A stretch of DNA of 64,000 nucleotides from Cloeon dipterum (lineage: Eukaryota; Arthropoda; Insecta; Ephemeroptera; Baetidae): positions 33,191,681-33,255,680 of the forward strand of contig NC_088786.1 of the NCBI RefSeq assembly GCF_949628265.1, written 5' to 3'. The position numbers were made by a program, and so were the translations under genes. Shown here one piece after another: positions 38,696 through 63,977 of the stretch (its first letter is position 1; each line of letters starts with the position of its first letter). The notes under the pieces were generated by a model that saw only the letters and a program-made list of their open reading frames with translations, did not search any database and was not told the DNA's origin.

Positions 38696-39573
38696 GATTG
38701 TATACACTACATACACAACACAGATCACTCAGATCACTAACTTAGCCTCATAGCCTCTTGCAAAAATATCATAGGTGGCGGTGGTGGCGCGTTGTTTTGA
38801 TGTGATTGGTTTGAAGAGAGTCCCGGTAAATCAGAGACATCTAAAAAGTGGCGGCAAATTGTAATTTAATTATTAAAAATGATAATTAATTATAGACCAA
38901 ATTCATTCCTAATTATTCATTCTAGAGGAAATGCATTAATTGGATTTTAAATAATAATCTGATAGCTTCGTTTCGTTACCATTATTTTATTTTGTAGTGT
39001 TGCAAAATCACCAAAACCAAATTAATTTAGAAAAATACGAGGATGTGTTTAGAGTTAAGACGTGTTGCAATCCTCCAATCATGAAGCAGCAAATTTGCGT
39101 ATTCAGCAGGAGTTAAACTGCTTACGTTTACCATTAGAAAGGAGTGATGTGATTGGCTAGGACGGCGTGAATTTGACCCAAGATGCAACATTTTTCCTTA
39201 CACCCCATTCAAAAGTAAAAGTTGGTGTCTGTTTACATGAAATCTGTTGCTCTTCTGTCCATATTTCGCAAGTGTACACATCCGCTGAACTGTCCTGGTC
39301 AGACGGAGACACCAGGTTCAACCAATGAACCCAAGCAGCTGCAAGAAAAGCAGCCGAGGCGTTTTTCGAATGCGTTAATTCGTGCGAACAGCGGGCAGTG
39401 TCGGTCACAAATGGACACGATTATCAGCAACTGACTCAGCCGTCGTGTTTATCTTAGATAAGAGGCCGAAAGGATCAGGTAGTACTCACTAAATACGAAA
39501 AATGCATCTAGTGATCGCCGATCGCTTACCGGCGCACGTTTGTCCACAGAATCCGGAGCGAACGACACTTGCG
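38696..39573. promoter_or_regulatory. divergent promoter region, SLU7 / BTB gene
   Basis: 878 bases between divergent start codons. It contains inverted CCAAT boxes (gattggt near 38802, gattggct near 39152) and GC-richer sequence near both ends. An in-frame ATG at 39502 could extend the BTB protein by 24 residues, but the BTB family normally begins just before QFCLRWNN. No other gene is seen. Confidence 0.4.
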
Positions 39574-42500
39574 ATGGCCGGTTTAGGGGATCAGTTTTGT
39601 CTGCGCTGGAACAACTTCCAGAGCAACATCGTGTCCGTGCTGGACAACCTGAAGGAACAGGAGGACCTGGTGGACGTGACACTCGTGTGCGAGGGCCACG
39701 CGGTCAAGGCGCACAAGGTCATCCTGTCAGCGTGCAGCCCTTACTTCAGAAATGTCTTCAAAGTAACTCGAAAAGCTCACTGCTTGACGGTGACCTAATT
39801 TCGCGCCACTTGCAGGAAAACCCGTGCCAACATCCGATTGTCATCCTGAAAGATGTGCAAAACACGGAACTCGACGCTCTGCTGAGTTTCATGTACCAGG
39901 GCGAGGTGTACATCTCACAGGACAGGCTTTCGTCCTTCCTCAGGACGGCAGAAATTCTGCAAGTCCGAGGACTGGCAGGAGCCACTGCACCTGCTGGCTT
40001 ACTGGTACAAATATAGTCACAGCTCCTGCCGAATTAGATAAAAATCGTTTGTGCCGATTAAAATTTATATTTAGTCAAAACTGAAGTGTCAAAAATTGAA
40101 ATTTCAGTCAGATCTAATGAAAATGAGCAAGAATGGCGGGAAAATAGAGACTGCTCACTTAGTTGTTTCAATCAAAAAATCAGTATCAAAATTCCTCCTG
40201 TTAATTTCAGCAAACGGACCAAACGCAAGCTAAAAATCGGAGTAAAGGTAGCTCAGGTCGAGGCTCGCCGCTGCCCCTGCTAAACCCGATCCAGAAGGAA
40301 GCGACCTCGCCCCCTCAGGCCAAACGAAGAAAAACCACCCCGAGAAGGGTTGTCGAAAACGCCGTTGCAGCTGTGAGTCTTCCCCAGGTGGGGGTGAAAC
40401 AGGAACCTATGGACGATGAGCAACTGGGTATCTGCAGGGAAGAGGACCAGCTCAAGTTGGACGGCGACGATGAGGATGAAGAGCCTGACGATCCGTTTTT
40501 GCCTCCGTCAGGTTCTCAAAGCCCTCTGGCCAGCGATGAGTCAACTAGCATGCTTGCCAGATCATTAACTGCCCCTCGAGATGCCACTGGTGAGTAACAC
40601 TTCACACAGAAATAAATTCATGAAAATTTCCAAAGTTAAGATTTAAAATTAATGAAGTAAATTTAAACAGCAGAATTTAGAGCGTCTGGTCTTGCGTTGC
40701 AGATTTTACTTTTTGTATAATTTAAAATAATAAAAAAACGGAATTCTTTACATTTCTTGTACAAGGATTATTCCAATTCTAAATTTTTTAAATACCATCA
40801 TCTCCGTATTTTTAAATACTTCTTGATATTTCCAAATTCAAAAGTTTTGAACCCTTTTTATTGCCAGATTAGTTTTGGTCAGAGTTTGGCAGAATCAGCA
40901 AATTCCTTCGCGTAGGGGTAGCATTTGAGGGGGTGATCAGGGTGCGCCCTGAGACACTCGACGAGCACCTGCAGAGGTGGTTCGGCCTTAGCCGGGGGCA
41001 GGACACGGTGCTGGGGACGTCTTAGGGGTGTGTAGTGCTGGCTAAGGGCCTCTTTCAGCTCCCTGACGCGCACCTCCAGAGCCACTTGCTGGTGCTGCAA
41101 CTCGCGGAACAGTCCCTCCTCTACGTAGAGGCCATCGGCGCGAAAATCCTGGTGCCGCGCCTCAGGAGGGTCAGGCACAATGGCCACCCTGAAAATATTA
41201 TCTCCGTTAGTGCTCAAATTATTTTTTGTAAACGTGTCACTTAGGATTGACGAGTAAACTGATAAAATAAAGGCGAGTTTTATGAATGTTGTGAATCAGA
41301 ACATTTTTTGTTGTTGATAAAAGTTGCTCAATACCTTGGTGGGTTTTGCGCATACTTTTGGCCGAGCTGCTTGGCCAATTCCTCGGAAACGCGAACTATT
41401 TTCGACTGGCTGATGACCATTACCGCTGTTTATATTTTGCCAAAGTGGAATTTTACTGAATTTGAATTCAACAATACACAACAGTGATTTCTAAAAGTAT
41501 TGTTGAGAGTAAAAAAGCAGCAAAACTTATAAATTAAAATTGCACTTGAAGTAAATAGTTTAATAACAATGTTATCGCTAAAATACTGAAATCTCATTTT
41601 TTATTTCAGGATCAAATTCTCCTCTACAAAATCTCCTTTTAAGCGGAAGCGTGGAAGCGTCATTGTCAATTTCGGATCAGCAACAGCAATTGTCGCCAGG
41701 TGAGTTGAGCTTCAAATTTTTATGTGCATGTGTTTTTGGCCGTTGGATAATTTATTAATAAAAATCGGGAGGAACGCTGCTCTGTCTTGGGCCGAGCTTT
41801 TTTTATCTCTTTTCTTTTTTCTTAGACTAACTCTCTGCTGCTGCCTGCGATAAAATTTAATCAACTTTCGGGTTGGGTTCCATCACACTCGGCTTTATGT
41901 ATGTTCTGTTTATCTCTGATAAAAAGTGGCGTATGCGTGTGTGTGCGTTGTGGTTGGTTGTACATTATTTGGAGCATTTATTTATCATCGAGCAAACAAA
42001 TATTCAATAATTTGTCGTGACGAGTTGGCGCGATAAAACATGGTCTGCAGGAGATTTTTGTTTGTCACTCTTGTCTCGGATACAAAGATCATTATTATTA
42101 TTACTATTATTTTCTCGAGCCGCGAGAAACTCAATCAATTGGCACGTGTATTCCCGTCCGTCCTTCACTCGGATTATAAAATGAACGATTGGGTTGAGAA
42201 AAATGGGCAACCTGAAAGGCGCATTCCTCGCATTGTTGAACAGCAGCGAGTGCCTCTGGTTCTTGGGGCCGAGGTTCGCAGGGCATCAGCAGAATGAGTG
42301 TGACCTGTTCGCAGGGTCGTCGGTGGGCTGCTTCGGGCGGGGCGCGTGCCGCCGACCCCGCGAGTGCCCCCTCTGCCGGCGCACCTTTAGCAACCACTTC
42401 AACATGAAGCAGCACGTGATGAACGTGCACGCGCCGCCCGTGCCGGCGCAGTGCCCCAAGTGCGACTGCGTCGTGCGTAACCGGCTCTACCTGCGCAAGC

Positions 42501-45001
42501 ACCTCGTCAAAGCGCACAACGTGCCGCTCAGACGCGTCTTCGACAGCCACGGCCGCCGCGTCTACGTTCGCTCCCCTCCCTCCTCGCCCTGACCCTCCGG
42601 ACCTCCCCTCTTCCGCCAAGGACCGTAAACGAACTGAAGGATTTTTACTGCCATAACGGAAAACGCGGGCGACCACCCCCCATGGGACCCATTTTAGTCC
42701 TGATGGCTTACCCCGAGTGTCACAATCAATATTTTATTACTTTTTTAGTCTCGTAAATGCTAAGCAAAAAGTAATTCTTTTTTTCTTGTTGCAATAATTT
42801 AAATTTGTCTAAATTTGACCATTTCGTCCTCGGTAAATTCTTTTTATAGGACGAATTAATACTTGAGCTTCCATTTTTTATAATTTCTGCATGAAATATT
42901 TATATATAAAATATTACAATCTTATCGTTCATAAATGAAGTCTTTACAGTACAGTATTTTTTATTTTGAATAACAATATTTTGATTCTTATCATCATATT
43001 ATGTAATACTTACAGAAATTAAACTTAAAATTTAATTGCTATTATTTGGATGTGATGCTCAAGGTTGGTTTTTAAATTCATTTTCAGAAATTACCCCTCC
43101 AGATTCAAGTTTCATTGGGTGGTTAAATCCCAAAAGTGCCAAACCAGATTTACAGTCAACCCCGTTCCTCCACAGTTCCTTGCAATTTCGAATTTAGTAT
43201 CAAACGGAGCCAAATCAAAGGAGAGGCCAATGCATTTGTTCAGTGTACCTTGCGTCAATTCACGCGCACAACAATTTGTTCAGCAGGCTGCACCGCTTGT
43301 CTTCTATATTTGCAAGTGGGTAACAAAAACTGAGTGTGTAAAATTATATACATGTGTGCAATTTAATCAATCTTGCATGAAGATGTGTTCCAAGTACAAA
43401 AGTGCATGACACGGTGAAACTAACATATACAAAAGAGAAAGTTAGCTGTAAAAATACCCTGTATGTGATTTCTAGGGCTCATATCACAGGCCGTAACATG
43501 AGTCTTTGCTAGTCTGTGGTTCATAGAGCTTACACTTGCCCATATTTTGTGTAAATGACGTCTGAATGAAACTAATAAAAGCAACTATATATCTTATACA
43601 ACATTAACCAACTCGCTTCAATACGCTGCATTTCAATGCACCTCTCTTTAACGCACAAACTAATGTTCTTAGCGATTTGACTAATTTTGGTGGAAATTTT
43701 GGTGTTGATCAGTCGCTCAACAGGCAGAAAGCCTTTTTCCAAATAATTTTGACGCCAGAATTTCCACTCTCCGCCAGCAAAGAGCGAATATAATTAACGC
43801 GCAGTGTGGAGCAGAATGCTGGAAAGGGCCACGGTGATTGCGGATTTGAGACGCGCTCGTTTTGCTTTCTAGGGAGCCAGACGACTCGGCCGGCGGGCGG
43901 TCTTCCACGGGTGGCGCAGGGGGGCTCGTGTCCCCACTGCGGCCAGGAGTACGCCAACCAGTCGTCGCTCAAGTACCACGTGCGCCTCGTCCACTCGGAA
44001 ATGACTGACCGTGCCTGCTGCCACCTGTGTCCCAAGTCGTTTCGCACGCGCGAGAGTTTCAAGCTGAAGCAGCACATGAAGGACGCGCACAACGTCCACT
44101 ACTGACCCCGCGCGGAAACCTCGCTTTTGACTGTGCCACACGAACTGTTTCCCCTCAATCAGGGTCCACGGACGAGGTGACTGCCAATAATGCGGCGCAT
44201 GTGACGTCGAGGGAACAATTTTGCACGAAAGTGTCTCTCGTCACAGACTTCGAAGCCGTGAAAAATTGCTTGTTAATATTTTTGATGCGAATTTGGTGTT
44301 AAGGAAAGCCAGTTGATCAAAAATCGAGATTTTAGTAGAGGTCTTGATTCCAATTTCAGGACCACAATTATTTTGTTCTTTGACAGGCCATCGATTCTTC
44401 CACCTGAACATCGATTTTTTTTGTTACATTACGAATTCTCACACTACTCTTCGTTGATAATTATTATTATATTATTTATAAAAGATGTTTATGTTGCATT
44501 TCTTTTTTAACACTCACTTTAATCTATAAGAATAAAAATCTTTCTCTTAAAACAACGCCCAGCTTTTTCCCCGCGAAACTTATTATTTCCTCCAGACCAT
44601 GTCTCGTATTTTTTTTATCATTTCGAAAAGTGAATGAGTTTTACCAGCATGCCGTTTGTCTCTTGAGTTTGCGTCTTTCTTTTCCATGTGCCGTTGGTTA
44701 TTTTTTTTTCTTCAAAGAAAGCAGTGTCATGTGGTGTGCATTTGCAGAAGATGTTCGAAGCTCAGACAGTAACCGAATGAGCAGTCGACCCTGTCCAGTA
44801 TGCCAGAAGATCATCTCGAACAAGTCCAACCTGGTGAAGCACATGCGGATCAAGCACGGTGGCTCGTACCTGCAGGAGGCCTCGTGCCACATTTGCGGCA
44901 AGGTCTTCAAGCACAAGTACTCGCTCTCGGCGCACATGTACTCGCTGCACCGCTCGACGGACGCGCCCAACGAAAGCAACAACCACCACGCTGCCTTCTA
45001 A
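39574..45001 (+). CDS. BTB/POZ transcription factor with alternative zinc-finger ends
   Basis: Shared exons are 39574-39762, 39816-40004, 40211-40589 and 41610-41699. Residues 1-126 form an insect-type BTB domain of the Ttk/Broad group: [63 protein letters not shown] and [16 protein letters not shown] domains dimerise and recruit chromatin factors. A basic, Pro-rich linker (KRRKTTPRR) follows, then a SUMO-site-like VKQEPMD and an acidic run. The shared part leaves the reading frame in phase 1, and three downstream exons each start with an acceptor in that phase and encode two C2H2 fingers plus a stop (42315-42592, 43873-44105, 44748-45001). This is the layout of Broad-Complex, lola and ttk, in which finger choice sets DNA specificity. 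I cannot say which family member it is. A small gene lies antisense in the 40590-41609 intron. Confidence 0.88.
40879..41420 (-). CDS. MIC19/CHCHD3-like protein with degenerate CHCH domain (131 aa)
   Basis: Two exons, 41420-41335 and 41188-40879, lie antisense in a BTB-gene intron. The N-terminus [14 protein letters not shown] resembles the DUF737 start of MICOS subunits MIC19 and MIC25 (human GIRLSENVIDRMK). The C-terminus [19 protein letters not shown] aligns with the CHCH hairpin of human CHCHD3 (LQCYRENTHQTLKCSALA), with the same ten-residue Cys-Cys spacing. MICOS proteins shape mitochondrial cristae. The middle coiled-coil region of normal MIC19 (about 227 aa in human) is mostly missing. 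The first and fourth Cys of the twin Cys motif are replaced (Ala and Ser) while the second and third remain, so only the inner disulfide could form. It could be a short paralogue or a diverged orthologue. No frameshift or internal stop is seen. Confidence 0.7.
42315..42592 (+). other. alternative terminal exon 1 of the BTB gene (two C2H2 fingers)
   Basis: A gttcgcag acceptor leads in phase 1 into a GC-rich exon with fingers [18 protein letters not shown] (ending MNVH) and [18 protein letters not shown] (ending VKAH), then a basic tail with HGRRVYVRS and a stop. Both fingers have normal Cys-x2-Cys and His spacing. Confidence 0.8.
42593..43872 (+). other. untranslated / intronic spacer of the BTB gene
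   Basis: AT-rich sequence that probably contains the 3' untranslated region of the first zinc-finger isoform and then intron. A possible non-finger terminal exon at 43088-43197 (ttttcag acceptor, phase 1, 36 open codons starting EITPPDSS) is weak and not called as a feature in its own right. Confidence 0.4.
43873..44105 (+). other. alternative terminal exon 2 of the BTB gene (two C2H2 fingers)
   Basis: A gctttctag acceptor leads in phase 1 into fingers [18 protein letters not shown] (ending RLVH) and [20 protein letters not shown] (ending KDAH), then NVHY and a stop. In the second finger 14 residues, not the usual 12, separate the second Cys from the first His, an unusual loop. Confidence 0.8.
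44748..45001 (+). other. alternative terminal exon 3 of the BTB gene (two C2H2 fingers)
   Basis: A catttgcag acceptor leads in phase 1 into fingers [18 protein letters not shown] (ending RIKH) and [18 protein letters not shown] (ending YSLH), then an Asn/His-rich tail and a stop. Spacing is regular. The 642 bases before it are AT-rich and otherwise empty. Confidence 0.8.
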
Positions 45002-53156: not shown

Positions 53157-54999
53157 ATGATCGCACGGCGGCCGTTTCTCCACTGCTTATGCATCATTGC
53201 AACTGTGAGTTTTAAAAATAACTTTTTTTGCACAATAAATAATAAAAAAATCTACTTTGCTCTCTCCCATATATATAAAAAAATTAGCTAACTGTGTCAC
53301 GCGCTTTGGCGGAAAATGGAGTGCAGCAAGGAAATGATCTGAGTATGAAACTTTTAATTTATCAAAAATCAAGATCTTTAATTTCATTTATAGTAGATGA
53401 TCAGAGATAATTATGTTTTAATTTTTATTAATAAGAGCAATTTCAAGCGATTTGATTAACCAATCGTACCTTATTCATTTTACGGAATGTTCGATTGTCA
53501 TGTGTCTCAGGTCGGGTTCGAGTTCGCAGACAGGCAGATAACTCAAGTAAAATTTCAGGTTTATTAATTAATAAATGAACTTAAGTTAATGGTTACTGAG
53601 CAGCTACCACTACGACGCCCACAACTACGACGACCACACCTACGACAACCACATATTCGACAACCACAACCTCCGCAACTACAAGTGAAATTGAATTTTC
53701 ATTTCAAATTCTAATTTTTGGTACAAACCTTTTTCCATTAGCAAAGTCCACCACTACCACAACAGCAGGGAAATCCACGACAAAGAGCAAAACAGAGCAA
53801 TATGCCAAAGTTCCGTGTTCTGGGGTCAATCCCAAAGTAAATTATTCAAAGTTAAAGCGTGAATGAAGAATTGAAATTTTCTTCCAAGCTTTTGACCTCT
53901 TGCTGCGAGTCTCCAATCGCGGACTTCTTTACGGATGATCAGAAACTGAATTGCAGCGAAAAGAAAAGGAAACCACTTTTGTTTTCCGCCACTCGCGAGT
54001 ACATGCTGAGCAAATTCCAGGACACGAAAACCGGATTGATTGACTTCAGCACGAAGCGTTTTGGTGAGAGTGCATTTAAATTTGCTGTCGAGGCGACGAA
54101 AAAATAATTTTAAACATTTTTGCAGCCGCACAAATCGGGCCACGGGCAGTAATAAAAATTCATATTCCTTAAAAAAAAGACAGTAATGATTTTTATTATT
54201 TTTTATGCGAGGTTCTTGCCCAATGTCTTTTCCAAGAGACGAAATTGGTGAGAAAACCATGGCTTAGCTCATTGTCAGCACCAAACCTAAAAAAATTAAC
54301 GTTTATTTAGATGGATGAGAGCGGCAATATTGACGAGGAGGCTTTGATTTCTTTTATGACTGAGAACCTTGATGCGGAATGGCAAACGTTGATCTCAGAT
54401 GCGATTACCAACTGCAAGAGTGAAGTTGAAGGTTAGAAATTTCAATGACCTTTTTTTAAAAAAAGTATTTTCTACAAAAACGCACCATTAATTATTTGTA
54501 ACTTGAAGTAAAAAGAAATAAATTGTTGCTTGCTTATTTACTTTAAAATAATTTCAGGTGTGCAGACGGAAACGATGGACGTGGTTATAAAGCCAAGAGT
54601 CACAAAAACAAGCTCAACAATGCCGTTCCTATATCTTCAATGTGTCATAAGACGAGCAAATGCGGTAAAGGAAAGCTTTAATAAATTGATTCCGAAATTA
54701 ATTTTTTTTAAAAAAGAACTGCCCGACGTCTTTGCAAAAAAGTAAGACAAAAATTGTCCAATCATTTTAATTTTTATTATCCGCTGCTAGCTAACGGAGC
54801 TTGCAAGAGAGCATTCAGCGTAATGGGAAGGTGCAGCGTTCAGGAGAAAAGCAGCGGCAAAGCGGCCCGAAGCGCTCGCAGGTCAAACAAAGCGAAGAAG
54901 CAGTCCAAATTTGAGAGGCCTCCAGGCCACTGGGGACCAGTGCTTAAGACGGACCTCAAATCGTCTTCCGCTAATCTTGACACCGCGTCAGTGGCCTAA
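53157..54999 (+). CDS. OBP cluster gene A: secreted Thr-rich plus-C OBP (324 aa)
   Basis: Eleven exons join in phase: 53157-53204, 53288-53342, 53604-53684, 53742-53836, 53889-54063, 54126-54148, 54212-54247, 54311-54431, 54558-54664, 54717-54741 and 54791-54999. Residues 1-24 form a signal peptide split over two exons, ending SRALA. A Thr/Pro-rich mucin-like stretch covers about 36-75. The OBP part shows VPCSGVNPK, SCCESPIADFF, LNCSEKK, VLAQCLFQETKL, a helix MDESGNIDEEALISFM, YLQCVIRRA, NCPTSLQKT and ACKRAFSVMGRCS. The usual Cys-x3-Cys pair has lost its first Cys (V-L-A-Q-C). The last exon adds about 50 basic and Ser-rich residues beyond the OBP fold. The Thr-rich exon has a gagcag (NAGNAG) acceptor, giving proteins that differ by one residue. 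The role in odorant or other small-ligand binding is inferred from the family. Confidence 0.8.
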
Positions 55000-55831
55000 T
55001 TAAATCCACATCCACAATAAATTTTGTTGTTAAATAAAGGGTGACATTGTGCAAAGATAAATTAAAATGGAATCGTGCTCGTTGGACACGTTGAGTTCAT
55101 TCATACCAACCTGGAAGATTTTGTTATTCCTGCAGTCCTATTCATGAGCCCCTTCAGTTCCCATAAGATAAAAATGAGTTAATTTCACCTTCAGCTTTAG
55201 AGCCGAGGCAAATGGGAATTACCTTCTCATGAAAAGGGCTGCAGTAAAAGTCGATATGTTCCAACGAGGACAAGTCCATATTAATTCATCTACGGGTTTT
55301 TACATTTTGTTAAAAACTAGTTATAAACTGCAGAGTGCAAAATAAAAGTTTTCAACACAAATTTTACACGTCTGTTTCTGAGATTATTTTGATATAATAT
55401 TAAGTTGGAAATACTAGCTTCTTAAAATGATCTACGAGAGTGATTTTTTTAAATTAATATAATAATAATAATAGTGGTAATTATCTCATCTATCGCTGTG
55501 TGTGTGGTATGTAGTACACCGAATATGGAATTTTCTAATCTAAAATTTGCATATTTAAATGCTATAAAGTCTTCTATATTCTAGAAGGTTCATAATTTGA
55601 ATATTCATGCATAGGTTCTGTCAGTAGTAATGTATCTGTCGGACTCTATACGCTCCTAGTTGATGCATGTGGGAAACGCATGACAGATTTATGGTTGGTT
55701 GTCCCACATATGCGCTGGCAGTGGTTTTTGAATGGCAGATAGGAAGGTCTTTTTTGTCTTTGTCAATGTCAGCTAACAAAATGGTTGAAAAGCGCAAGCA
55801 AACGTTTCATTTGCTGTTCTGCGTGCGAAAC
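55000..55831. other. spacer between OBP genes A and B
   Basis: AT-rich, with a poly-A-like end to gene A (aataaa near 55017) and the likely promoter of gene B. An in-frame ATG at 55781 could extend gene B upstream, but that would spoil its signal peptide. Confidence 0.45.
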
Positions 55832-57078
55832 ATGAAAGTTAAAAATTTTAGTTTGGTTATTTCTTGCGTCTGTTTCTCTCTTTCAGTACAGGTGAGTATT
55901 TCAAATAAATTTATTAATAGCATGAGCATCTGATATTTTTTTATTTATTTGCAGGATACGAACTCCAAAAATAGTATTATAATCTATAATTATTATATAT
56001 TTTGTTTTACTTATATTTTAAATTAAATAGCAAATAAAGCAACAGCAAAGCAATCAGTGGTTTCTGCCAAGAAAGTAGTATGCAGAGCATTGAACGGGAA
56101 AGTAAGCTTCATTCTCTGTCAAAAAAATATTGAACCGAGCAGCATTAAACGAGCCTGTTTGATTTGAAAGATTTTAAACACCTGTTGTACCGGATCACCG
56201 ATCTCTGATTATTTCTCGGCTGGTCAGAAAACAGTATGCAACAGTTACACAAAAAATGCAGCGCTGTTCTCCTCGACAAAAGAGTACAAGCTTCACAAAC
56301 TGGCAAATGCCAAAAACAACAGTATCCCGCTCTCTACTTCAACTTTTTGTAGGTTTTGCATGGCTTTAAAAATTTGAATACTTATATTTTACAATCTTCA
56401 TGATTTCATAGTGACAATGGGAACTGAAGCGGTATTATTTCAATTAATGGTTTATCAGAAGAGAGATTAAATTCTAACATTTTTATCAGTGCTTCATAGA
56501 ATGTCTTTTTTCAAATGCTAAGCTGGTAATGTGAAAATATTTTCGTTGATCAACATCCTTACTAATTTAAAATGTTTTTTTTTCTAAGATCGCCGATGAT
56601 GAAACAGTCAGCGCAGACTTGGTTTCGACCTATTTATCGGAAAATCTCGATGAAACGTGGGCGAGCGTTGTACAAACAGCAGTAACAGACTGTGCCACAA
56701 ATATCGCTAGTAAAAGATACTTTCTTTATAAAAAAAACGTGGATTTGGAACCTTTTTACAGCAATTGTGGAAGCCGTTCCGTCGGTTGACGTGACTATCA
56801 AGCGAAGAGTGATCAAAACTTGCAGCATCGCGCCTCTTCTATACATACATTGCGTCATCAGGGCGGTTAATTTGGTAAATTTTCGTGGTGTTTTCTTTTT
56901 CGAAATACTGTTGAATTTTTCGTTTGCAGGATTGTCCGTCAAGTGCTCAAAAGAGTATTTAAAATTTTAATTATTAATTATTTAGTGCTAGGTAAAAACT
57001 TACGATTTTTCAGACACCACAGCTTGCAAGAAAGTTCTGGAGTCGTTCACAACTTGTGATCCTTTTGCAACTTCTTAA
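55832..57078 (+). CDS. OBP cluster gene B: compact plus-C OBP (235 aa)
   Basis: Ten exons join in phase: 55832-55891, 55955-55973, 56031-56101, 56171-56348, 56412-56431, 56490-56525, 56589-56709, 56762-56874, 56930-56954 and 57014-57078. The signal peptide MKVKNFSLVISCVCFSLSVQ is encoded by exon 1. Next come VVCRALNGK, TCCTGSPISDYFS, TVCNSY, the Cys-x3-Cys pair CFIECLFSNAKL, a Cys in VTDCAT, KTCSIAP, IHCVIR, DCPSSAQKN, and ACKKVLESFTTCDPF with a short tail. This is the version without a Thr-rich segment: exons 2 and 3 carry only a few linker residues. It therefore shows the base architecture of the cluster, with the plus-C Cys set complete. The same exon sizes recur in its neighbours (36, 121 and 25 bases). 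Function is inferred from family. Confidence 0.85.
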
Positions 57079-57349
57079 AAATAATAAAAGAGATGGTTAT
57101 AACGCTCTGTTTTAATTGAACAAATAAACAGCAGCTTTTTCGCATTTTTAGTCTTGCATTGCATGCAGTTGTGTATCATTAGGACTAGCATTTTAAGCAC
57201 AAAAGCGGCAAAAATGTGCCACATCAAATTATAAACGCATTAGCACCAGACCGTATAGGTGCGCGATTTAAAATGATGCGATTTTAAGTGAAAGAAATGG
57301 GAAGAGCAATAATGGCAAGTATTGAGGCTCTCAGAAGAGGCACAGCATC

Positions 57350-59530
57350 ATGAAGCGCTGGCTGCTTTTGCTCGTGATCCAATACTTTGTAACATTTTTT
57401 ATTTAAATATTGTGACAAGTAATATTTTAATATTTAAAACAGATTTGCACTCAATTATATTTCATTTTAAAAAATGTTCACTCAAATCATGGTAAAAATT
57501 AAGGTTTCCGCTGGAATTATTTGTTAAATAAAACTCTTTATTTGGTGGCTGAGACAGAAGAAGTGCACTCCCGATTCATTCGTTCCGTTGACGACAATAC
57601 AACAACTACAACTACAGATCCTGTAACGACAACAACAGCACTGTCTACGTCAACAGGTAAACGCTATAATATAGCATACAATTTAAATGTTAAGGAAAAT
57701 CGGTCCTCGACAATGGTCACACATATAGCAACTTTTTGTATGCCATTTCGCTTTTTAGCTGTAGAAAATTCAACTGTTGAGCCTTCAACAACAGTCACAA
57801 CAACGATGACGACGACGACTACAACAGAAGAGTCAACCACAAAAGCACCAACAACTACCCCTACTGTCACAAGTAATGAGTTGATTCTTCTGGGTATAAC
57901 AGCATTATTTTATTAAATGTTAGCAGCCTCGACTACAATTATAACTACCACAACAGCAGCCACAACTAAAGCACGTACACAAATCATTTTTCGTTTAGCG
58001 CTGCTTGGAAATAAATTTGCATTATTTTAAGCCACTGCAACAACTACTACGATGACAACAACAGCAACTAAGGCAGCAACAGTGACAACAACGGCAACCT
58101 GTTAGCTTTCATTCATTGTGGTTGGAAAAAATAATAATTTCTTTGGCTGTAGATACGAGCACAGACACAACTACCACAATTGCGGGTAAAAATTGCAAAA
58201 TTATCTCTAAAGAAAGCAATTAAATGCCATCTCATTTTCTGTACATTATTTATTTAGCAGGATCTTCTGCAACAACAACAATTACAACAACAACAACAGC
58301 AGCGAACACAAAATGTGATCTTATAGTAAATCAGTGTGTCATTTATAAATTAAAATATGAATAAATTAACAGCATCAAGTTCGACATATAACTCAACAAC
58401 TAAAACATCGACTAGTATATAAATGCGATGCAAATCGACTCTGCTTACTTAATTTGATGAAATTTTAGCTTCTGGAAGCACAAAGACAACTACGAGCCTT
58501 CGATATATCGTGTGCAGCACTCTGAATGAGAGAGTTAGTCAGATTAGAACACTCGAGGTGCAAATGATTGATTATATTTTATTCAGATTCTGACATCATG
58601 CTGTAAAAGTCCGATTTCTGATTTCTTTACAAGAGAGCAGATGTTTGCTTGCAACGCGCAGAAATTTGACAGGGAAAAGTTTCTGATATCCAACGAGTAC
58701 TTTTTGCACTCGCTGCAGAGTCAGCGGACGAATCTGATCGACTTCTTGTCATACAATACAGCCCAGAAGCTTGGCTACTCCGCAGTATGAGATAAATTAA
58801 TTTGTTTAGATTAACCGTTGCAATTAATACTCTACAATTTTCAGTGCTTCAGCGAGTGTCTGTTCAAAAATGCGAGGATCGTAAATATATATTTTGTTAC
58901 CAAACGAAAATCTTTTTTAAAATTTGGTATTTTGCTTGCAGATTCGTAATGATGCGATCAATGAAACTGCATTTACTGAACTAATTGTGAGCAATCTGAA
59001 GAAAGATTGGAAGAATACGGCAAGTATTTCTGCGTCGCATTGTTTGGAGTCGATGTCGAGTTAATAATGGTAATTTGGAACGATTAAACACCTAGTTGTA
59101 TTTTTGGGATATTGCAGATGTGAAAGTGAACAATGCTGTTCGACTGGGAAATGTTAAAAAGTGCTCCATTCTCCCTACTCTGTTGCTGCAATGTGTTTTA
59201 AAAGACATTAGAGCGGTATGAATAATTTTATGTAAAAATATAGTTTAATAATATTAAGATTTGTTAACAGAACTGCCCGTCAAATTCGCAAATATGTTAG
59301 TAGCGTTCTTATCTTTTTAGATTAGTTTTTTCATCAATATTCAATGCTTTTTAGCTACGTATGTGTGCTCAAGATCGAGGTCAAATTTCAACTACTGTGA
59401 CGCTTTCGCCTCAAACGAGTACGGCGGCACCAGCGGCAGAATATACAACAACGTCCGAAGGGTGTACTCCTCTAGAGGATACTCCCGCCCCAAATTGTCT
59501 ACCTACATTATCGGATTTGCCGGGAAATAA
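57350..59530 (+). CDS. OBP cluster gene C: plus-C OBP with long multi-exon Thr-rich region (421 aa)
   Basis: Sixteen exons join in phase: 57350-57388, 57443-57491, 57558-57656, 57759-57872, 57924-57974, 58032-58100, 58153-58185, 58261-58314, 58373-58414, 58469-58533, 58587-58784, 58845-58880, 58942-59059, 59118-59215, 59271-59295 and 59355-59530. A hydrophobic N-terminus (MKRWLLLLVIQYF) is the likely signal peptide; exon 2 is the least certain. Exons 3-9 encode about 150 residues dominated by Thr with Ala, Ser and Pro (TTTTTTDPVTTTT, TTVTTTMTTTTTTE), all in phase 1 at both ends. The OBP domain follows: IVCSTLNER, SCCKSPISDFF, FACNAQ, CFSECLFKNARI, HCLESM, KKCSIL, LLQCVLK, NCPSNSQIS, VCSRSRSNFNYCDAF, and a Tyr/Arg/Ser-rich tail. 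Heavy O-glycosylation is expected. Exon 11 spans what are two exons in genes A, B and D, an intron loss here or gain elsewhere. Confidence 0.78.
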
Positions 59531-59742
59531 ACCATTCAAAAATAAAGAGATTTTAAATTTTACGCTCTTTGATTGATTTCCAAAAGCGAGGAGTTAATGA
59601 AATAACTGAAAGCACAAATACAAACTTGGATATGAAATATTCGTTGCAATAAATAGATGTAAATGCTTCTCATGAATCACATACAAGGCAGTTTATTTTA
59701 AATGAAATATATAAGTTAGTCCTCAGGTTGGATTGCCAATTT

Positions 59743-60749
59743 TTAACTGTGGCGTTGAGCCCTTCTCACGACATCCTCCATATCATCGAGTCTCTTTTTC
59801 TTGAACGACTTTGCCAAGCAGATGGAGAAAATACCAGCAACCAGCTAAAATTGTATAGGGATCGATTATATTTCCTTCTGTGAAAATACGGCAGCAATGA
59901 TAGCATTACCTGCACCAAGCCAAAAACTATGCCAACAGATGCAATCGAATTTGAGTTGATAAGGCCAAGAATGCCAGACACTAAATTTAGCGCGCAAGAG
60001 ATGAACAGGATGGCGGCATACTGCGAAAATTTAATCAAATGACAAAAATTATATTATTAGAAAACAATCCAATTTGGAAGACGCGGCACCCAATAATCCC
60101 AACACAAATAAAAGAAAATAATAAACTCGCAGATAATTATATGAAATTAAAATTTACGAAGCTTTGTTTGCGTGGATTTACTAAGGATGGATATATTACT
60201 TTAACAGCTTTCCTCAAGAATTAAATTATAAATATCATTCCTTGAGTAAATTCACGTAGAACATTATATTATAGCCATTATCGTCAATTTAAAATTCATA
60301 AATAAAATTATTTATATATAATTTTCCTCAGTGGATAGGGGCTTAAAATGTTAATTACCGTCTTCATCAAAGTTGGAGAGCCCTTCAGTGTTCCGCAGCA
60401 GCCTATAAACGCGATCGTGACAGCTATTAATCCACTGACTAATAAAATAGCTCCAACCAAATCAGGTTCCGACTAGACCAACATACGAAAAGTGAACTCT
60501 TTTGTTAATCGGGAAACTTGGCGAATGCTCACAATGTTTTCTAATCCTGCAATATCAAGCCGAGCCAGAAGCGCAATGCCAAAGAAAATTACAGTTCCTC
60601 CAAAGATCTGAAAAAACAGTTTAGTGAAAACAAAGTCGAATTCATAAGCACCGCGCCCTTACCACATTCAGGAAATTCACAATGAAGATGACCCATCGGA
60701 AGGAGCAGAGGATGCACCCTCCCACACAATTGCAAAGACAGCAACCCAT
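59743..60749 (-). CDS. tetraspanin-like protein lacking the large extracellular loop (162 aa)
   Basis: Five exons, all phase 0: 60749-60663, 60607-60533, 60472-60359, 60020-59910 and 59844-59743. The N-terminus MGCCLCNCVGGCILCSFRW is Cys-rich, as in palmitoylated tetraspanins. Four membrane segments follow: WVIFIVNFLNVIFGGTVIFF, AILLVSGLIAVTIAFI, YAAILFISCALNLVSGILGL and IVFGLVQLVAGIFSICLA. Between segments two and three is the tetraspanin signature FIGCCGTLKGSPTLMKTY. Between three and four only about eight residues (INSNSIAS) remain, where normal tetraspanins have a loop of some 70-130 residues with the Cys-Cys-Gly motif. The tail is basic. It is a membrane protein probably able to form tetraspanin-like packing but without the usual partner-binding loop. 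The 60021-60358 intron holds only an AT-rich unrelated frame. It is antisense to the surrounding OBP genes. Confidence 0.78.
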
Positions 60750-62038
60750 TTTTTGGTACTTTTACCGAAGGACTCGCTTCGTTTCTTTCTGGCCAGATAT
60801 CAGAGCAGTTGACTCTTGGTCTGCTTTTATATATTTGTCGTGATTATTAAAAATGTATAGATAAGAAGCTTATGATAGTAAAAAATCAATTATGACACAC
60901 CTGATTATTGTTGAGCGATGACGCTCGCCCGCTGGGAGAGCGCAAAGCAAGTAAAACGTAAACTCCCATTTTCAAGTGGGTATATAATCACGTGTATTGA
61001 ATAAAAAAATGCAAGTGGCCATAACATTGAGTTTTATCTTAAACACGTATATATATCAAGACAATACTTTAAATAGCCAGAGCACTTCATCGATCGAAAA
61101 GTGACTCACGGTGCAGATAAAGAATATCAAAATGTCAGATTTGCTGATTACAGAAAAAGGAAAAAATTTAATTATTAATATGCTCTGAGCAACATTTTCT
61201 GCATCGGAACAAATATTCAAAATAAGCCCAAGTCAACATGTTTCAAAATGACGAAATTTAATTTTAAATCAATCCGCTCTTTTGTTGATAAGTATAGTTT
61301 CATGAGTGCTAAACAAAGTACAGGAAAAGTCAGTGTTGGGGGCCGACCAGTCTCATACTGCGGTGATTCTGCAGCCAAGAGGATGAGAGATTTTTCCATG
61401 CAGGAAAATTTCATATAAATCAAAAACTAACTACTAGATTTTTTAATTGTCTTTTATTGGTCAGATCCTATCATTCTGTGCAACTTTTGGCAATCCAATT
61501 TTTTTGAGCTAGAATTTTATTATACTTGTTTATTGTTGCTCTTGTTAAATACAATAATAAATACATTAAATATGCACAGTAAAATATATTCAAATCAAGA
61601 GAGGGTGAACAGAAATAGCGATAGGAAGACAAGTAAGCGCAAGGGAGACACATATTAAATATTTTTGCCGATAAAAATTTTGAAATTTTCTACCGTTGGA
61701 AAAATTCAATGCAATTTTCTTTGTAAATTTTACAATACTTTGAAAACTATCAATGAGGGAAATTTTCACATTCGAATTATCTCTTTGGTCAGAAGCCAAA
61801 TTAAAACACCCTTCGTGGTAAATATTTTCAGTAAAGGCGAGACCATCAAGTCTTCCTAGCTGGACACATCTCATTAGCGCTCAGTATTGACGTTGTTCAC
61901 TGTCATTAACGCTGCACTACGGACGAGCGGACTTCCTCTATTTTCGAAATCCCCGCAGTGACGCACGTGATTGATGCTCTACAGCGACTAACTAAAAATC
62001 TAGAAGCAAATTTTCATTCCGTATCAAACCATCATGAC
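60750..62038. other. divergent spacer between the tetraspanin-like gene and OBP gene D
   Basis: AT-rich. A TATA-like ttttatatattt lies at 60825-60836, reading toward the tetraspanin-like gene on the minus strand, with an initiator-like tcagagcagt near 60799. The last 150 bases are GC-richer and probably hold the gene D leader. No further gene is seen; a minus-strand open frame at 61217-61423 has no recognisable domain. Confidence 0.45.
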
Positions 62039-63977
62039 ATGAGGGTCTCCAAAAAAGCTCGATTGGTTCTCGTCCTCACTCTCTTTTCGCAGGTAGAAAG
62101 TTTTATTTTCAAAATTTACTTATTATAGGCTTAATATAATTTTCTAAAAATCAGATTTGGGCTATTCATGGCCTTGAGCTGGTTCGCAATGCTGGTAATG
62201 TGACGCAAAACACATTTTTAAATGCGTGCATGTAAATTAAATTCCACCCGCAGGCCCCCGAGTGCGACGACAGGCCGCGGACACAACGACCACCGACACG
62301 ACCACTTCCACTGATACAACTTCAACAACAGACTCGACAACTACAACTGACACGACGACGCCGACGACGTCGACAACGGCTGGTAGCTCTAGTGACTCCT
62401 CAACTGCATCAACAGACGCAACCACCACTACAACGGAAACAACTACTGAAACAACCACAGACACCAGCACCACTGGGACAGGTGGTTTATCTTTAAAACA
62501 ACAATTTTGTGTTTATTAAGATTCATAAAAAAGTCAACCCAGACTAAAATGTAAAAGTTTAACAGTAGTGTATATTACTATAATTTATTTGCACATTATA
62601 AACACGTGCAAAATCTGATAAAACACCATTTTACACATTATATTGAGCAGTACGAGACTCTCAGTGCACCTTTTTCAATATCCCTGTTAGTTTATAGTCC
62701 TTAAATATATTTTTATTATCATCATGAATCATGAATAGCAGTTTGTTACTTAAATTCTAATTTTTCCACGACAAATACATTCTAGATTCCCCATCAAGTG
62801 CGTCTTCTACTGGTAAGAAATGATTATTCATTCCCTGCAAAGTATAACAGAAACAAATCGACGAAGCCACTACAGCTTTCGTAACAAATACAAAAACCAC
62901 CACCAAAGCAACTCAGAACAAAGTGCAGTGCAGCAAACTCAGCTTCAAGGTAAACATTGCTGTTTTTCGTTTTATTCTACGCACACAAATCAATTTTAAC
63001 AATTTAGAATTTGGAAGGCTGCTGCGACAACCCGAAATTCGACTTTTTCGTACAGAGCCAAAAATTGGCGTGCAATGAGCGGCACCACGACTCCGCTTTG
63101 TTTTCCAACACGCTTATTTACAAGCTGCACAAGTTTCAAAACTCAAAGACAAATCTGATTGACTATGCAGGTTTTACGATGTGGTGGTGCTAAATTTATA
63201 AATTTTAACTTCAATAACTGTTCATTTAGTTCGAGCTCTTTCTTATCCAGCCGTAAGAACAAACTTTTAGAATTTTTTAATACTTACTCTGAGAACAATT
63301 GAATTTTGCAGTGCTTCACGGAGTGCTTATTCAAGAACATCAATGCTGTATGAAAAATAATTACAAAATTAATCTCGATGACTGACTATGATCAAAAGTT
63401 TCCCAACAAAGCCTTGGACAATGTGACCCTGGTGGCATATTTTGCCAATAAATTGAACTCGAAAAACAATACAGCTTGGGTTGATGCATACGCTAATGCG
63501 ATTGGCGCTTGCGTCTCAATGTTCAAAGGTGAAACTCAAAAGAAAATAAAGTGCACTCTGTCAAATTATTGAACACTATAGGTTTGCCAAGGAAAAAGAC
63601 CGTGCGAGTGAACTTGCGGGGCAGAGTGGCTGGCGAGTGCGAACTGGAACCGTTTTTCGTGATGCAATGCGTTTTAAAGACAGTTAGCGAGGTAATAGAG
63701 GCATATTTTGTGTTTTAATATATAAAATAAAATGAGTTTTAAGGACTGTGATGCATCTACTGCAACTGGTAATTAAATGATGCAAGAATATGATTGAATA
63801 TTTAATTGATATTACTTCACTCCTGCAGCAAACGCCACATGCAAGGCGACACGAGAAAAATTCTCTTTGTGTAATCCTGATGGGTCGGCAAAAAGGAAAT
63901 ACATAAAATATTTCAAGATCGTTTATGAACGAAATCGCCCAGTCGTCATTCCATTCTTCGGCAAAAGAGCCGGATGA
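62039..63977 (+). CDS. OBP cluster gene D: Thr-rich plus-C OBP (355 aa)
   Basis: Twelve exons join in phase: 62039-62092, 62155-62194, 62254-62481, 62786-62812, 62867-62949, 63008-63170, 63230-63252, 63312-63347, 63399-63528, 63582-63691, 63744-63768 and 63829-63977. The signal peptide is MRVSKKARLVLVLTLFSQIW. A 76-residue exon is nearly all Thr, Ser, Asp and Glu (DTTTTDTTTSTDTTSTTDST and so on), more acidic than in the other copies. The OBP part shows VQCSKLSFK, GCCDNPKFDFF, LACNERH, CFTECLFKNINA, GACVSM, GECELEPFFVMQCVLK, DCDASTATANATC and FSLCNPDG, then a basic, hydrophobic tail. The Cys-Pro of the plus-C class has become Cys-Asp. Two acceptors (cgacgaag before exon 5, atcaaaag before exon 9) lack a good pyrimidine tract and were chosen by frame and by comparison with the paralogues, so those two starts are the least sure. 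Confidence 0.78.

Follow-up and report, generated by a model that had tools for sequence, protein, structure and literature searches.

We lean toward reading four plus-strand genes of the mayfly Cloeon dipterum, here called A to D, as Plus-C odorant-binding protein (OBP) paralogues, three of which would be mucin-like carriers or scavengers tethered by a Thr-rich arm rather than freely diffusing. In most accounts, an OBP is a small carrier with a single domain. The genes lie within positions 53157-63977 of a 64,000-nucleotide stretch of DNA (the window, C1:33191681-33255680, C1 being a contig), and the genome searched for related genes comprises 190 Mb in 10 contigs. All four were spliced by hand, with introns that are GT-AG throughout and phases that fit, and their signal peptides were predicted from N-terminal hydropathy alone. 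The gene models and their parts, in window coordinates, are as follows.

53157..54999, plus strand: gene A (12 exons, 336 amino acids), with a predicted signal peptide, a propeptide with RVRVRR, a Thr arm, a Plus-C-like OBP domain with 10 Cys, and a basic C-terminal tail.
53511..53546, plus strand: exon 3 of gene A (phase 1-1), with the furin-like site RVRVRR, followed by QAD, before the Thr arm.
53604..53836, plus strand: Thr arm of gene A, spanning a phase 1-1 exon and the larger part of the exon after it, which also codes for the first core Cys.
55832..57078, plus strand: gene B (10 exons, 235 amino acids), with a predicted signal peptide, a short linker without a Thr arm, and a 12-Cys Plus-C OBP domain.
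57350..59530, plus strand: gene C (16 exons, 422 amino acids), with a predicted signal peptide, an RFIR site, the longest Thr arm, a 12-Cys Plus-C OBP domain, and an Arg/Tyr-rich tail.
57558..58533, plus strand: Thr arm of gene C, made of seven phase 1-1 exons (the RFIR site in the first) and part of the next exon.
62039..63977, plus strand: gene D (12 exons, 352 amino acids; 355 in NCBI), with a predicted signal peptide, an RVRR site, a Thr/Ser/Asp-rich arm, a 12-Cys Plus-C OBP domain (CD, not CP), and a basic tail.
62254..62949, plus strand: arm of gene D, starting PRVRRQAAD, spanning two phase 1-1 exons and the larger part of the exon after them.
63312..63347 in D, 54212-54247 in A (VLAQC, first Cys lost), 56490-56525 in B, and 58845-58880 in C, plus strand: 36-base Cys-x3-Cys exon of the spliced models.
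63744..63768 in D (DCD), and 54717-54741 in A, 56930-56954 in B, and 59271-59295 in C (all Cys-Pro), plus strand: 25-base exon of the spliced models, with the cysteine C6.

A chance or pseudogene origin of the cluster is ruled out by the four coherent exon chains, one of which gives a model identical to an NCBI protein. Because the cores of B, C, and D are 30-37% identical to that of A, we classify the four genes as old tandem paralogues and not as chance resemblances. The original prediction, made from the letters of the window, had pointed to common exon sizes, and these recur throughout: the 36-base and 25-base exons are present in all four models, together with an exon of 121, 121, 118, or 130 bases. 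It had also called the genes adjacent. Four plus-strand genes do splice cleanly, but they are not strictly neighbors, since a minus-strand tetraspanin-like gene lies between C and D (window 59766-60658; 37.7 bits, over the cut-off, for pieces joined by eye). In the 20 kb downstream of the window (L039 and L040), the OBP profile listed no further tandem members.

The public names obscure this cluster. Model A is identical across its 336 residues to P0001 (NCBI LOC135944995), so that the annotation is exact for this gene, and model D differs from P0002 (355 amino acids) by 3 residues at one splice acceptor; P0002 is, however, misnamed “serine-rich adhesin for platelets-like.” The NCBI model of C (P0003) is truncated to the last 198 residues, the first 224 being absent together with the signal peptide and the arm. 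For gene B, the four-core profile matched no database protein in a search at E values up to 0.01.

The C-terminal domains of the cluster can be compared with the published Plus-C formula, C2-x3-C3-x39-47-C4-x17-29-C4a-x9-C5-x8-C6, in which C1 and C2 are 8-41 residues apart, a Pro follows C6, and C6a comes after 9-11 residues. From C2 on, B, C, and D fit this spacing (x3; x41, x40, and x44; x25, x20, and x24; x9; x8), and C6a lies 10 residues after C6 in all four genes; written as one pattern, the three share C2-x3-C3-x40-44-C4-x20-25-C4a-x9-C5-x8-C6-x10-C6a with the Plus-C OBPs. In B, C, and D, the nearest Cys upstream of C2, one candidate for C1, stands at a distance of 43, 44, and 40 residues, respectively, versus 8-41 in the formula. 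The Cys-x3-Cys and Cys-Pro motifs, both ascribed originally to all four genes, each hold in three: A has VLAQC in place of the former, and D carries Asp after C6 (CD) in place of the latter. With C2 and C4a lost, A retains 10 core Cys versus 12 in the other genes, and for this reason we file it as a derived relative of the Plus-C OBPs and not as a strict member. That these two cysteines were lost together suggests a C2-C4a disulphide bond, a pairing for which the literature search found no source.

Profile searches lead to the same family. A profile of five cores, comprising A to D and a further locus described below (L051), matched the structures of AgamOBP47 (3pm2) with an E value of 1.1e-8 and of AgamOBP48 (4ij7) with 6.6e-8; with the four cores of the cluster, the values were 1.1e-6 and 2e-5, and A alone reached 3pm2 at 3.9e-5. 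The Pfam models are less receptive: for PBP_GOBP (PF01395, cut-off 22 bits), A scores over the cut-off (25.8) and B under it (18.2), with C and D not listed, and for OBP47_like (PF22651, cut-off 27), A, C, and D score 20.5-22.5, under the cut-off, with B not listed. The predicted fold of the Cys domain, low in confidence (mean predicted local distance difference test score [pLDDT] of 50.8), has OBPs among its likenesses, AgamOBP48 first; a structure prediction of full-length D (mean pLDDT of 40.7) was set aside. Because the Cys spacing holds in B, C, and D and the profile matches AgamOBP47 and AgamOBP48, we assign the C-terminal domains of the cluster to the Plus-C odorant-binding domains, in line with the identity first proposed for them.

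What sets these proteins apart from the known Plus-C OBPs is the part in front of the domain, where A, C, and D hold a long Thr arm behind a furin-like site, and, at the other end, their extra basic or Arg-rich tails. The Thr/Ser-rich segment between the predicted signal peptide and the OBP domain was part of the original prediction for three of the four genes and is found as described: the Ser plus Thr fraction from residue 21 to the core is 0.47 in A, 0.56 in C, and 0.55 in D, versus 0.26 in the armless B, and in C this stretch holds 79 Thr in 179 residues. In NCBI's annotation of A and D, too, the Thr exons are spliced to the OBP exons and not assigned to other genes. Each arm is preceded by a basic site (RVRVRR in A, RFIR in C, RVRR in D), which we take to be of the furin type, with putative cleavage, and the site is kept in P0005 and P0004, the other C. 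dipterum proteins related to A and D, respectively. The arm exons are mostly of phase 1-1; the last one enters in phase 1, leaves in phase 0, and contains the first core Cys.

Several observations bear on how the arms arose. Their Thr codons are mixed (entropy of 1.57-1.98 of 2 bits), and a tandem repeat finder gives only short arrays, in A and D, with scores of 57-78, so that a plain microsatellite is ruled out for most of their length. When the paired C. dipterum proteins are aligned, core identity is 89% for D and 93% for A (in part), without gaps, and arm identity is 82% for D and 84% for A, with 10 and 8 gap columns; because of this combination of identity and gaps, we read the arm as kept while its length drifts. 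By composition the arms are probably mucin-like and O-glycosylated. Matches of the A arm to Pfam glue and mucin models (28.2 and 22.8 bits, under the cut-off), like those of P0001 to chemokine-binding proteins via the arm, were taken as effects of composition.

OBP domains of this kind also seem to be joined to digestive-type proteases at other places in the genome. At C1:10.35 Mb (L051:4650-7396, minus strand), a trypsin-like protease, one Thr-rich exon, and a 12-Cys OBP domain follow each other in one frame in silico, and we propose that this locus, L051, is a trypsin-OBP fusion gene, as it seems to be from its exon chain. All 12 introns of the model are GT-AG with fitting phases, and the 600 amino acids begin downstream of the signal-peptide end. 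At the junction, a GTGAGT donor in phase 1 closes the trypsin exon, and the exon coding for the arm opens in the same phase. The protease part scores 144.6 bits against Pfam Trypsin and contains TAAHC, NDVALL, and GDSGGP; with Gln before IVGG and Ala two before the Cys of CQGDSGG, “trypsin-like” is a family label and does not denote specificity. The OBP domain has nearly the Cys spacing of the cluster, without the Pro, and scores 22.1 bits for OBP47_like, under the cut-off.

The arrangement seems not to be confined to this locus. Genome searches with the cores of C, B, and D, two Pfam families, and parts of L051, in which weak matches up to an E value of 10 were kept, gave 108 distinct OBP-like places, equivalent to 49 loci, four of them the window genes. 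These were crossed with 100 listed places matching the last trypsin exon of L051; the counts are lower bounds. For at least 10 of the 49 loci, the last exon of a trypsin precedes the OBP-like match by 193-672 bp on the same strand, against a rough chance expectation of 0.00026 per locus, although three of the 10 lie within 17 kb on contig C5 and are not independent. Among the matches listed, none of the 49 loci has an opposite-strand trypsin exon within 3 kb; at two loci of the C5 array, a trypsin exon also or only lies about 2.3 kb downstream and is the neighbor's. Besides L051, the places are as follows.

C1:32.65, C1:33.04, C4:1.18, C4:10.13, C4:14.31, C5:6.45, and C5:32.764-32.781 (three) Mb, trypsin and OBP on the same strand: nine trypsin-OBP places, trypsin last exon 193-672 bp upstream.

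Three of these places can be followed further in the search alignments. The matches to trypsin and to OBP at C1:32.65 Mb share a frame and are each reported in a 192-amino-acid open frame, a reported length that, when compared with the stop-to-stop run in the window, was equal in all four checked rows without stops and alone in their frame and larger in five of the 12 rows checked. At C4:10.128 Mb, a single search alignment (query 1-104) crosses from trypsin to OBP sequence and meets no stop, and at C5:6.453 Mb, a similar alignment (query 1-100) has a stop inside.

How might such proteins work? On the reading that we favor, each would be secreted, its propeptide would be trimmed at the basic site, and the arm would be heavily O-glycosylated. 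The bulky arm could then anchor the protein in a gel (mucus, cuticle, or peritrophic) or at a secreted surface, and there the disulphide-rich OBP pocket would capture hydrophobic ligands. The original prediction had pointed to a putative role in mucus, an egg coat, or aquatic cuticle secretions and away from plain olfaction; the aquatic setting supposed there agrees with the source, a mayfly being an aquatic insect. The phase-1 intron before the OBP exons may act as a socket for phase-1 modules, accepting mucin exons in A, C, and D, a protease with a mucin exon in L051, and in B nothing beyond the signal peptide; both the trypsin-arm-OBP gene at C1:10.35 Mb and the similar arrangements elsewhere in the genome would follow from such a socket. 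From here it is a further and more tentative step, to which we give a little less than an even chance, to regard the Plus-C OBP domain as a mobile module for which the phase-1 intron is the point of insertion and which can follow a signal peptide, mucin exons, or an entire trypsin-like protease, with a classic OBP domain placed in a C-type lectin gene, the chimeras using the OBP pocket for ligand sensing or targeting in secreted gels and enzymes, outside olfaction.

A number of results weigh against tethered, mucin-like carriers. The absence of an arm from B makes the arm dispensable for the family, and Thr runs are not enriched as such, (ACN)8 being rarer genome-wide than its reversed control (959 versus 2173 matches). 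The fold model is of low confidence, and Foldseek gave no match for it at an E value of 0.001 or better. A protein search with the D core returned D itself and its C. dipterum relative, reaching no other species, and the search with the four-core profile gave five proteins, all five from Cloeon dipterum and none from another mayfly. Finally, the OBP part of L051 matched no annotated protein of about 330-1050 amino acids at an E value of 10 or better.

The proteins could instead be ordinary chemosensory OBPs of the nymph, acting in head or gill sensilla, in which the arm does no more than change solubility or keep the protein from being lost to the water, and odorants are still ferried to receptors. 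We consider this unlikely, though it deserves some weight because OBPs are reported in neural-marked gill cells: according to passages of Almudi et al. 2020 (PMC7250882), C. dipterum has 191 OBP genes, 82 of 167 are expressed in gills, with 25 gill-specific, and OBPs are expressed in heads and in gill cell clusters positive for horseradish peroxidase, a neural mark. Yet three of the four genes have a long arm, that of C exceeding a whole classic OBP in length, and similar domains sit behind trypsin exons.

Less probable still is that the arms arose as neutral low-complexity expansions and do nothing by themselves, the attached OBP domain working as usual. The gap columns between the C. dipterum proteins show that arm length differs, and the lack of (ACN)8 enrichment would also fit such drift. 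However, the Thr codons are mixed, and the arm has held its composition across the three paralogues and the two other C. dipterum proteins found. The arms also agree in position, each following a basic site at one and the same phase-1 junction, and in L051 trypsin is linked to OBP by a comparable arm. We think it very improbable that the Thr or trypsin exons belong to separate neighboring genes, which would make the armed and fused models splicing artefacts. This would account for an NCBI model of C without an arm and for an L051 without an annotated counterpart in the size range searched, but not readily for the arms in the NCBI models of A and D, the phase-1 donor of L051 that meets a phase-1 arm exon, the trypsin and OBP matches in one frame at C1:32.65 Mb, or the stop-free alignment from trypsin into OBP at C4:10.128 Mb.

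If the favored reading of tethered carriers and its extension to fused proteases are true, mucin-armed and protease-fused OBPs would show the OBP fold reused as a building block of larger secreted proteins; insect odorant-binding domains may thus be mobile parts of such proteins. The genes would further offer a sequence-based handle on non-olfactory OBP functions and might account for part of the large OBP count in C. dipterum. A comparable design is known from insect secreted enzymes, such as chitinases and proteases with chitin-binding domains, in which a catalytic or gel part, a Thr-rich linker, and a small Cys-rich binding domain are combined; here, in contrast, the binding domain is an OBP. 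Two D7 salivary proteins (7tx8 and 7u1n) are among the matches of the predicted fold. D7 proteins are multi-domain versions of the OBP fold in secretions, formed by duplication, and are not known to have a mucin arm.

The OBP repertoire of Almudi et al. 2020 concerns the same species and the same domain family as A to D, and the main text of that paper (PMC7250882) has no occurrence of mucin, threonine, or Plus-C. For another mayfly, passages of a 2026 survey list 10 OBPs, all Classic or Atypical, the longest of 252 amino acids (PMC13205551). A literature search over titles and the start of abstracts found no mucin-armed Plus-C OBP, no trypsin-arm-OBP fusion, and no OBP joined to a lectin domain. 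Plus-C OBPs and the large C. dipterum OBP set are already known; within the literature searched, mucin-armed Plus-C OBPs and trypsin-arm-OBP genes appear to be new.

Beyond the cluster and L051, we examined 18 regions of 10 kb, two directly downstream of the window and the rest at or beside OBP-like matches, and in three of them (L047, L048, and L051) found an open frame in which Thr makes up half or more of a 24-residue stretch. L047:1-6860 and L048 (C4:31.08 and 31.18 Mb) are inverted copies whose three aligned pieces are 93-97% identical. Each copy has, within a short distance, an exon rich in Thr, lectin-like exons, and a classic OBP domain, a grouping by position. One lectin-like frame of L047 matches Lectin_C at 33.6 bits, and a second has no Pfam match. 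Their OBP domain scores 33.5 bits for PBP_GOBP with a query joined by eye and 28.9 bits with a shorter one, both over the cut-off.

Other OBP-like places were noted along the way. More Plus-C-like OBP exons lie at L049:4690-6355 (plus strand) and L050:2150-5363 (minus strand), neither region having an open frame that reaches the Thr cut-off applied to the 18 regions; the pieces of L049, when joined, matched no Pfam family. Seven tandem loci on the minus strand of contig C2 (C2:9142093-9177521) match the OBP CC exon of L051, with no trypsin exon nearby among the matches listed. On the same contig and strand, at C2:7663482-7663724, a trypsin end continues into the linker part of the query, with a reported open frame of 867 amino acids, perhaps a trypsin with a very long arm. 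In the window itself, 1152-1445 on the minus strand holds a weak match to the OBP profile (E value of 0.0018, profile positions 90-164) that may be due to chance. The remaining genes recognized in the window, both on the plus strand, are a dynein heavy chain gene at 12868-34887, with several Pfam dynein domains, and frames with a BTB domain and C2H2 zinc fingers at 39483-44998, perhaps parts of one gene.

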